Shown one piece after another: positions 4,955-41,289 of a DNA stretch of 64,000 bases. The notes under the pieces were generated by a model. That model was not told where the DNA came from. It did no database searches and was given only the letters and a program-made list of their open reading frames with translations. The position numbers and the translations under genes were made by a program. Each line of letters starts with the position of its first letter. Position 1 is the stretch's first letter. The stretch comes from Vagococcus sp. CY52-2 (GTDB lineage: Bacteria; Bacillota; Bacilli; Lactobacillales; Vagococcaceae), in NCBI RefSeq assembly GCF_022655055.1, contig NZ_CP093384.1, forward strand, positions 1,674,001-1,738,000, read 5' to 3'.

Positions 4955-7152
<2,198 letters not shown>

Positions 7153-39670: not shown

Positions 39671-40183
39671 TTATTTAGTAAAATCAATTTTTTTACTCAT
39701 CCAGTATATCATAACCCCACTAACTATCATGGAAAATAGTTCTCCTAAGCCAATAATCAGCCAGTTATAGAAAAATGGTAAATTATATAATATTGTGAGT
39801 TGTCCTGCAACAGTAAACATAGATATCGCAAACGTCATAGCTGTTATAACCATTTTTATTTTCATATTGTTGATACGTTTCGTGATGACATAATTGATGA
39901 CCAATACTAGAAACGTACTAATACTTCCAACCAATACATCAATAATTCCTAATGGTGAAAAAGCATTGGCTATCGCCACACCTAATGTCACAGCAACTAT
40001 ATAGCGTTTGTTATAAAGTGACAAATAATTAAACATTTCAGATAATCTTAACTGGATCGCACCAAAACTAATGACCGATAACACTAACGTCACTACAACA
40101 TACAATCCTGCCACAATGGCCATTTTTGCTGTATCTTGTGTTGTCCAAGACGCCACAGCAGATTGTTCTTTTTTATTTTCCAT
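39671..40183 (-). CDS. queT: queuosine precursor ECF transporter S component QueT
   Basis: QueT (COG4708/DUF988) is the membrane substrate-binding component for preQ0/preQ1-type bases, working with a shared ECF module. The 170-residue protein has five to six helices and the signature QLRLSEMFNYLSLYNKRYI with the LGVAIANAFSPLGIIDVLVG stretch. tgt and queA at 5-7 kb would use the imported base. AAAGGAG lies before ATG 40181-40183. The ribosome site is part of a predicted pseudoknot in the leader, described separately. Confidence 0.9.
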   Translation of the reverse strand: MENKKEQSAVASWTTQDTAKMAIVAGLYVVVTLVLSVISFGAIQLRLSEMFNYLSLYNKRYIVAVTLGVAIANAFSPLGIIDVLVGSISTFLVLVINYVITKRINNMKIKMVITAMTFAISMFTVAGQLTILYNLPFFYNWLIIGLGELFSMIVSGVMIYWMSKKIDFTK

Positions 40184-40190
40184 TTACATT

Positions 40191-40280
40191 TCTCCTTTAC
40201 AAGGAATTACCTTGCTAATAACTACAACCAAAGGATGTGAGAAATATTTCCCAACGAAGTGTTGTAGTGCGAAAACCCGC
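40191..40280 (-). promoter_or_regulatory. queT leader, preQ1-II-like riboswitch candidate
   Basis: On the minus strand CTACAAC (40267-40261) pairs with GTTGTAG (40228-40222). The large loop contains TCCTTT (40235-40230), which can pair with AAAGGA of the queT ribosome site (40193-40198). A small CAAGG-TAATT-CCTTG hairpin (40214-40200) lies between. A helix plus loop-to-ribosome-site pairing with an embedded hairpin is the architecture of preQ1-II riboswitches, which control this transporter family in streptococci. The primary sequence differs from the motif I know, so the class is inferred. Confidence 0.55.
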
Positions 40281-40318
40281 TAATTAATAGGATACACTTT
40301 TTCTACAAAAAAACAATC

Positions 40319-41068
40319 CTATTGTGTCATCCATCCACCATCAATTGGAACTATACTTCCTTGTATATAAGATGATGCTTGACTTGCTAAAAAAAGGGTT
40401 AACTGAGCCACTTCTTCAGGAGATGCCCACCGTTTACAAGGTGTTTCATCTGCTACCCATTTAGCCATGTGTCCATCCCCTGAAAAATCAGCTGCATTCA
40501 TTGGCGTTTTGATTGCTCCTGGTGCAACCCCAACCACATGAATCCCTTGTTCAGCATAATCTAAAGCCAATTGTTTTGTAAATCCAACGATAGCATGTTT
40601 TGACATGGTGTAACTAACTCCACCACCACCACCAATTAACCCAGCGATAGACGCCATATTGATAATCGTACCACCTTGTTGTTCTAACATCATTGGTAAT
40701 ATTAATTTAGTCAGTCGAAAATAACTTTTCACGTTCGTTTCATAAATATTATCCCATAGTTCCTCAGATGTTTCATTCAATGGCTTAAACTCATCCAATT
40801 TACCAGCAGTATTTAATAATATATCTATTTTGGGATACTTGGCTAGGCACTCACTAACTGCTTGCTCCAAATCATCTTTTTTAGTGACATCACCTTTAAA
40901 AAAAGTAAAATATTTTGAGTATTGTTTTTCTATTTCTTCTTTATCAAAGCCAAACACATATGCTCCTTGTTCTAAAAATAAACGAGCTTGTTCTTTACCT
41001 ATACCAGATGCCACTCCTGTGACAAAGACTACTTTTCCTTTAAACTCTGTATAATTAATAGAATTCAT
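40319..41068 (-). CDS. short-chain dehydrogenase/reductase
   Basis: A 249-residue classical SDR with cofactor motif TGVASGIG (about residues 16-23), NTAG, the catalytic Ser and YxxxK in SYTMSKHAIVGFT, and PGAIKTPM. The tail IQGSIVPIDGGWMTQ is typical of the 3-oxoacyl-ACP reductase-like group, but the substrate is unknown. The start ATG shares a base with the stop of the upstream DUF2829 gene (TAATG), so translation is probably coupled. A TTG start six codons earlier is less likely. Confidence 0.88.
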   Translation of the reverse strand: MNSINYTEFKGKVVFVTGVASGIGKEQARLFLEQGAYVFGFDKEEIEKQYSKYFTFFKGDVTKKDDLEQAVSECLAKYPKIDILLNTAGKLDEFKPLNETSEELWDNIYETNVKSYFRLTKLILPMMLEQQGGTIINMASIAGLIGGGGGVSYTMSKHAIVGFTKQLALDYAEQGIHVVGVAPGAIKTPMNAADFSGDGHMAKWVADETPCKRWASPEEVAQLTLFLASQASSYIQGSIVPIDGGWMTQ

Positions 41069-41289
41069 TAATCTACTATCTCCCAATCATCTGCTAAGAT
41101 ATCGCACACAGTTGGCGCAAAACTTGAAAAACCTTCATCACTTGTTTTAATTAAAAAATAATCAGTCACGGGACAGTCATCATATGTTTTTCCTGACACA
41201 AGTGTGACATATAACTCAAAACCGCCCCAACCTTTTCTAATCACTTTTTTTCCTGTTTTTAATTCTGGTAGTATTTTTTCAAATGTCAT
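41068..41289 (-). CDS. DUF2829 family protein, Tad2-like
   Basis: A 73-residue single-domain protein with the DUF2829 pattern: an N-terminal TFEKILPELKTGKKVIRKGW, then GFELYVTLVSG, and a C-terminal DILADDWEIVD. This family includes Tad2, a phage protein that sequesters the cyclic ADP-ribose signal of Thoeris defence. Here the gene is chromosomal, with no phage gene nearby, and is coupled by TAATG to an SDR gene. The usual SQ-D-ILAEDW block appears as TVCDILADDW. Whether it binds such a nucleotide is an open inference. Confidence 0.7.
   Translation of the reverse strand: MTFEKILPELKTGKKVIRKGWGGFELYVTLVSGKTYDDCPVTDYFLIKTSDEGFSSFAPTVCDILADDWEIVD

Follow-up and report, generated by a model that had tools for sequence, protein, structure and literature searches.

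Class II preQ1 riboswitches (preQ1-II; Rfam RF01054) are described in PMC11625349 as HLout pseudoknots with helices P1 to P4, in which the Shine-Dalgarno sequence (SD) is buried in P3. According to the same source, C30 and U41 read preQ1, A71 forms the floor of the pocket, and the ceiling pair is not conserved (G-A in L. rhamnosus, G-C in S. pneumoniae); the L. rhamnosus RNA has an EC50 of 19.5 nM preQ1 and gives 11.8-fold repression. The printed L. rhamnosus construct, whose P1 is engineered, reads CGACGAU-A-CUU...UCCUUU-G-AUCGUCG...CACAAAGGAGA (PMC7996396). The class is described as mainly streptococcal in PMC11625349 and is placed in Lactobacillales generally in PMC9495176. PreQ1-III (RF02680) has ten pocket nucleotides in common with class II, but its architecture is a different one and its SD lies far from the pocket (PMC11625349).

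Anatomy of the queT leader

In this work we analyzed a queT leader in a stretch of 64,000 nucleotides from Vagococcus sp. CY52-2 (contig NZ_CP093384.1, positions 1,674,001 to 1,738,000; hereafter the window). The leader occupies window positions 40184-40280 on the minus strand and holds P1, P2, an anti-SD loop and P4. Leaders of all 41 QueT genes found in 29 genomes of the family were compared by eye: 11 are of the window type, 29 are preQ1-I-like, and one (L083, genome G014) has neither a preQ1-I nor a preQ1-II leader. Alignment A1 of the 11 window-type leaders (10 distinct rows) was used to build model R1. From 102 R1 matches we took a set of 100 leaders, the window's own plus 99 others (94 distinct rows; 10, including the window, from the R1 training family), omitting L087 (genome G012, a near-copy of the window's leader) and L146 (a second copy in genome G214). 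L146 and L095 are equal-scoring variant leaders near opposite ends of one G214 contig, perhaps because the overlap of a circular assembly was left untrimmed. A second model, R2, was built from the 100 leaders. The features of the locus are listed below in the direction of transcription.

40319 to 41071, minus strand: SDR oxidoreductase gene, upstream of queT (NCBIfam NF005118, 352.5 bits)
40190 to 40272, minus strand: riboswitch core as modelled, comprising P2, loop hairpin, anti-SD, P4 and SD (R2 86.1 bits, E 9.6e-15; R1 101.5 bits)
40269 to 40280, minus strand: P1 hairpin GCGG-GUUU-UCGC at the 5' end, 40280-40277 with 40272-40269 (minimum-energy fold)
40261 to 40267, minus strand: P2 5' strand CUACAAC, seven pairs with 40222-40228 (both-sided changes in all seven among 100 leaders)
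40260, minus strand: A facing G40229 (positions 29 and 42), predicted pocket ceiling (base counts and the printed L. rhamnosus RNA)
40257 to 40259, minus strand: C30, U31 and U32, predicted preQ1-binding strand (CUU in 100 of 100 leaders; roles from PMC11625349)
40238 to 40253, minus strand: inserted loop hairpin UGGGAA-AUAU-UUCUCA, 40253-40248 with 40243-40238 (minimum-energy fold)
40231 to 40235, minus strand: anti-SD UCCUU, 5' side of P3 (invariant in 100 of 100 leaders; complementary to 40193-40197)
40229 to 40230, minus strand: U41, predicted preQ1 contact (U in 100 of 100 leaders), and G42 (G in 97 of 100)
40222 to 40228, minus strand: P2 3' strand GUUGUAG (covariation in 11 and in 100 leaders)
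40200 to 40214, minus strand: P4 hairpin CAAGG-UAAUU-CCUUG between P2 and the ribosome site, 40214-40210 with 40204-40200 (covariation)
40192 to 40198, minus strand: A70 and SD AAGGAG (A71-G76), 3' side of P3 (AAAGGAG in 100 of 100 leaders; 8 bases before the queT AUG)
39671 to 40183, minus strand: queT, preQ1 transporter gene, intact, 170 aa (PF06177 QueT, E 1.5e-34, 119.8 bits against a cut-off of 33.7)

Read 5' to 3', the leader consists of P1, one A, P2, the A facing a G, CUU, the hairpin UGGGAA-AUAU-UUCUCA, UCCUUU, the P2 return, UUAUUAG, P4, a U, AAAGGAGA and the AUG. The original prediction had described a stem CTACAAC/GTTGTAG, a loop TCCTTT complementary to AAAGGA of the ribosome site and an intervening CAAGG/CCTTG hairpin ahead of a queT gene. 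The stem is present on the minus strand (40267-40261 with 40228-40222), UCCUUU at 40235-40230 is complementary to AAAGGA at 40198-40193, the CAAGG/CCTTG hairpin lies at 40214-40210 with 40204-40200, and the PF06177 match (E 1.5e-34) identifies the downstream gene as queT. P1 and the hairpin in the P2 loop went unmentioned there; both are contained in the minimum-energy fold (-23.9 kcal/mol, z -2.18; 6 of 200 shuffles were equally good). P1 was rejected as a defining element because it is weakly conserved, with at least four pairs in 74 of the 100 leaders and only 36 of 100 beating shuffles at 0.1. The core match is the sole R2 match with E <1 in the window. Just before the queT start, window 40181-40189 (minus strand) reads AUG-UAA-AUG, an in-frame start followed immediately by a stop; the same arrangement occurs in three sister leaders.

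The preQ1-II-like topology proposed for the locus was supported: the order P2-P3-P4 is that of the class, and the core matches the L. rhamnosus RNA (PDB 4JF2), which has the same A29/G42 and the same CUU ... UCCUUU strands. The CAAAGGAGA tail of the printed construct is also shared. The window RNA differs in a 16-base hairpin with flanks between C30-U32 and the anti-SD, so that its loop has 30 bases vs 13 in L. rhamnosus. Having the same A, G and strands, the window RNA belongs with the L. rhamnosus form, and it is the loop insert that differs. The streptococcal RF01054 form shares the topology, the CUU strand, the UUU before the P2 3' strand and AAAGGAG, but it carries G-C in place of the A/G, UUCUUU as the anti-SD in 27 of 30 leaders, and a loop of 12-13 bases without a hairpin in 30 of 30. 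This streptococcal motif is a narrow branch: its P2 is CUUGGUG/CACCAAG in 28 of the 30, with a one-sided change in one leader and a two-sided change in another. PreQ1-I (RF00522) has the predicted ligand and the target gene in common with the window RNA, and a paralogous queT of the same genome has a preQ1-I-like leader, but preQ1-I is a small H-type pseudoknot with an A-rich tail. Of the two options left by the original prediction, a variant or a new class, the first was upheld and the second was rejected, since both topology and pocket are those of preQ1-II.

We concluded that the leader is very probably a preQ1-II-type riboswitch that turns queT off, a reading in which the ligand, the formation of the pseudoknot and the direction of control are carried over from the solved relatives. 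The leader would fold into P1, P2, the loop hairpin and P4. At high preQ1 the ligand would sit between P2 and P3, where C30 and U41 would read it, and would lock UCCUU onto AAGGA; the SD would then be buried and no QueT would be made. When preQ1 is scarce, P3 would open and the importer would be translated. The leader has no terminator-like site (the sole one lies past queT), which fits translational control, and there is no consensus promoter on the minus strand immediately before it, so that transcription may start at a promoter of another form or enter from the SDR gene. Given the lack of a terminator, the position of the SD in the predicted P3 and what has been published on the L. rhamnosus RNA, preQ1-dependent translational repression is the best reading.

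Covariation, pocket bases and the loop hairpin

P2 and P4 are supported by covariation. Among the 11 family leaders P2 is 100% paired with both-sided changes in 4 of 7 pairs; the corresponding figures for P4 are 89.8% of cells and 4 of 6 pairs. In the 100 leaders both-sided changes are found in all seven P2 pairs (99.4% of cells paired) and in all six modelled P4 pairs (94.5%). The entire structure is 93.3% paired vs at most 62.7% with partners slid, and the covariation score is 0.449 (at most 0.114 for slid partners; reached in 0 of 500 shuffles), in an alignment that was fitted to the model and favours the model's own helices. One leader (L206, genome G370, 686-824) carries a P4 insertion roughly 55 bases beyond the usual length, so large extensions are tolerated by P4.

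Covariation of the pseudoknot in relatives had been set beforehand as a test. P3 is invariant in the 11 family leaders, and its complementarity is perfect and unchanged on both strands in 100 of the 100 leaders, which were found with a model that fixes those positions. No P3 pair varies in the set, and for this reason covariation neither supports nor refutes the pseudoknot. A more distant leader (L344) has UUCUUU instead of UCCUUU, a one-sided change. The invariance of P3 is partly forced by the ribosome site, as would be expected of a protein-binding or thermosensor-like leader whose likeness to preQ1-II arose because hiding an SD takes an anti-SD strand. Complementarity alone, however, leaves the constant CUU, the compact loops of 11-13 bases and the covarying P2 and P4 unexplained, and we consider such a leader very improbable.

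CUU at C30-U32, UCCUUU at U36-U41 and AAAGGAG after P4 each occur in 100 of 100 leaders, and the class II pocket bases C30, U31, U32, U39-U41 and A70-A72 are present in the window and in all 100 (roles from PMC11625349). Part of this invariance stems from selection, since the model used to find the leaders itself fixes these bases. The numbering, which we take to apply to the window RNA, was transferred by counting along the printed L. rhamnosus form and the S. pneumoniae form. Positions 29 and 42 are A/G in 87 leaders, U/G in 10 and A/A in 3. The J2-4 joint, the site of A55 in class II, is UUAUUAG in the window and exceeds that of the printed L. rhamnosus construct in length; counted together with the final base of P2, it most often reads GUUAUUAC (36 of 100 leaders). 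Homology with the crystal structure suggests that U41, the final base of UCCUUU, and A70, the initial base of AAAGGA, touch preQ1 instead of pairing, so that P3 proper would be UCCUU/AAGGA (PMC11625349).

The same fold might in principle serve another 7-deazaguanine (preQ0 or queuine) or a related purine. Positions 29/42 differ from the streptococcal G-C, the window RNA has an extra hairpin, and QueT is termed a preQ1/preQ0 transporter in PMC12519234. Yet none of the 100 leaders departs from those preQ1 contacts of the crystal structure that can be located in it, and repression with an EC50 of 19.5 nM preQ1 is reported for the L. rhamnosus RNA, whose A and G are those of the window RNA (PMC11625349). 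A change of ligand is therefore improbable, and preQ1 is retained as the predicted ligand.

What chiefly sets the window RNA apart from the described forms is the hairpin in its P2 loop, an insert that 75 of the 100 leaders carry. The loop has 25-40 bases in these 75 and 11-13 bases in the other 25. Independently of the model fit, each of the 70 distinct inserts that are 12 or more bases long folds into a hairpin; z averages -2.09 and lies below -1 in 62 of them. Both-sided changes occur in 4 of 6 hairpin pairs among the 11 family leaders (70% of cells paired) and in all 6 modelled pairs among the 100 (73.4%). Neither the 30 streptococcal leaders nor the printed L. rhamnosus RNA has the hairpin. 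We infer that it is probably a peripheral module lying outside the pocket.

Distribution and relation to the Rfam models

R1 matched 101 of 395 Lactobacillales genomes at E<=0.01, in 33 of 80 genera; stricter filters were used in searches over more than 40 genomes, so the counts for R1, RF01054 and R2 are lower bounds. All 100 matches examined, 90 of them outside the training family, lie directly before a QueT-like ORF that starts at most 10 bases from the end of the model and matches the window QueT by phmmer (weakest E 6.3e-20). At L090 (genome G019) queT is interrupted by an internal stop. Named genomes were also scanned with a pattern, blind to QueT; the pattern catches 54 of 100 known members, and the named species are a sample. 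At least 120 loci were obtained. Sixty-two of them have R1 matches at E<=0.001 (38.8 to 97.9 bits), and these are exactly the loci that precede a QueT ORF. The other 58 listed loci, scattered over unrelated phyla, do not exceed 22.8 bits, and in no case does a QueT ORF follow. Among the 62 listed loci are those of Vagococcus bubulae, V. vulneris, 17 named Enterococcus species, Tetragenococcus, Pediococcus, Secundilactobacillus similis, Lacticaseibacillus saniviri, Falseniella, Vaginisenegalia, Fundicoccus and Globicatella, as well as Lysinibacillus, Sporosarcina, Kurthia and Viridibacillus; a look-up assigned Lysinibacillus sphaericus and Kurthia gibsonii to the order Caryophanales. R2 matched 12 of 368 genomes of the class, and all seven matches outside Lactobacillales precede QueT. 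In a phylum-wide draw of 368 genomes R2 matched the window's own genome and 0 of the 367 others.

The Rfam scan proposed with the original prediction gave a sub-threshold result for preQ1-II: in a permissive search of 601 bases, RF01054 aligned to the leader in register up to the AUG with 17.6 bits, against a cut-off of 47. Models mir-1302 and rli38 rank above preQ1-II in the same search, yet far under their own cut-offs. PreQ1-I and preQ1-III identity was rejected, as neither RF00522 nor RF02680 gave a match at E<=10 in window 39900-40500. At Rfam gathering thresholds the window contains 6S RNA alone (RF00013, 29241-29430, plus strand, 58.6 bits). The window RNA is thus not a member of RF01054 as now curated, whose 47-bit gathering cut-off it does not reach.

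The low RF01054 score would also suit a decayed or non-functional remnant, and the related genome G019 has a stop within its queT. The window queT is intact with 170 aa, however, and no leader scores higher than its own in the R1 or the R2 search, though this leader belongs to the training sequences of both models. We regard decay as exceedingly improbable, and take the low score to reflect the model. Two natural leaders near the L. rhamnosus form, L203 and L205, both precede queT and score 51.7 and 44.4 bits with RF01054; they straddle the cut-off, so that the threshold separates near-copies, and we accordingly read a failed cut-off as a limit of the model, not as a missing feature of the class.

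Over 395 Lactobacillales genomes, RF01054 matched 92 at E<=0.01 and exceeded its cut-off in 66. Of these 66, 65 belong to one genus and family (g11, f4), where R1 finds none. The RF01054 cut-off was passed in 0 of the 29 genomes of the window's family and in 1 of the 101 R1-positive Lactobacillales genomes (G329). In 25 of the 101, RF01054 has a match at E<=0.01 at the same place (tables compared by eye), and this coincidence links both sets as one family. Eighteen named loci, chosen to span the genera of the 62, gave no match to Rfam at gathering thresholds. Surveys that apply the Rfam cut-off would therefore miss the form in the 18 tested Vagococcus, Enterococcus, Tetragenococcus, Pediococcus, Lacticaseibacillus, Aerococcaceae-type and Caryophanales loci.

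Gene context, evolution and significance

The genome holds two QueT genes, which are 38% identical. The second (L002, 2023-2071, minus strand) has a preQ1-I-like leader that scores 16.9 bits with RF00522 against a cut-off of 39, and by eye 14 second-type queT leaders of the genus share such a leader. Two preQ1 riboswitch classes thus appear to serve two QueT paralogs in one genome. The window also encodes tgt, the queuine/preQ1 tRNA-ribosyltransferase (4988-6049, minus strand; PF01702, E 2.1e-165). QueF was not found in the genome, and the sole QueC match is a gene that scores as ThiI. With tgt present, QueF absent and the QueC match being ThiI, the genome probably imports preQ1.

A same-strand SDR gene lies upstream of queT in 70 of the 100 loci. 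It is found in 29 of 29 loci with at least 1000 bases upstream, which are the best-scoring matches (most of the other loci hold only 300 bases), and in 55 of the 62 listed named loci. Six of the remaining seven hold 1500 bases upstream and one holds 276; because six listed named loci lack the SDR gene within 1500 bases, the SDR was rejected as a constant partner. The 30 streptococcal and the 19 preQ1-I queT genes have no SDR gene in the preceding 1500 bases (streptococcal loci were cut at base 1500; L123 is shorter and its cut was misplaced). The riboswitch model starts 6-12 bases past the SDR match in several loci, which leaves little room for a promoter there, and hundreds of bases past it in others. 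From its position, the SDR is a candidate partner in preQ1 or queuosine salvage.

A QueT protein tree (155 rows, midpoint root, several long branches meeting) places all 19 QueT rows with preQ1-I leaders on one side of a branch (100/100). The 30 streptococcal rows group together (100/100), nested among other preQ1-II genes and beside L203, L205 and the f5 rows (80/97, fork not starred). Six preQ1-II rows (f6, f8 and f9) fall on the preQ1-I side. Given the midpoint root, the long branches and these six stray rows, a derived streptococcal form is offered as a suggestion only. Having the hairpin requires about 10 changes on the tree and lacking it about 8, so the insert was gained or lost repeatedly, and the hairpin was rejected as the mark of a single lineage.

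A broader scenario, which we put forward tentatively and which is rather unlikely in its entirety, is that the widespread and possibly original preQ1-II form in Lactobacillales and Caryophanales is the A/G-capped aptamer, in most cases bearing a loop hairpin; that the streptococcal form dominating Rfam hits is a side branch; that the hairpin is a functional module and tunes docking of the anti-SD; and that the SDR acts in preQ1/queuosine salvage. We found no earlier description of the hairpin-bearing form and no earlier report of the SDR partner in the open-licence literature, and any claim to novelty on either point is accordingly weak.

The set of leaders found here extends the preQ1-II class to a second order. 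It also gives the class covariation in P2 and P4, while the 30 streptococcal leaders have nearly none in P2. The natural series of leaders with and without the loop hairpin would allow a test of how distant parts of the RNA tune a pseudoknot switch. The recurrence of the SDR-riboswitch-queT arrangement suggests a candidate enzyme of preQ1 salvage.
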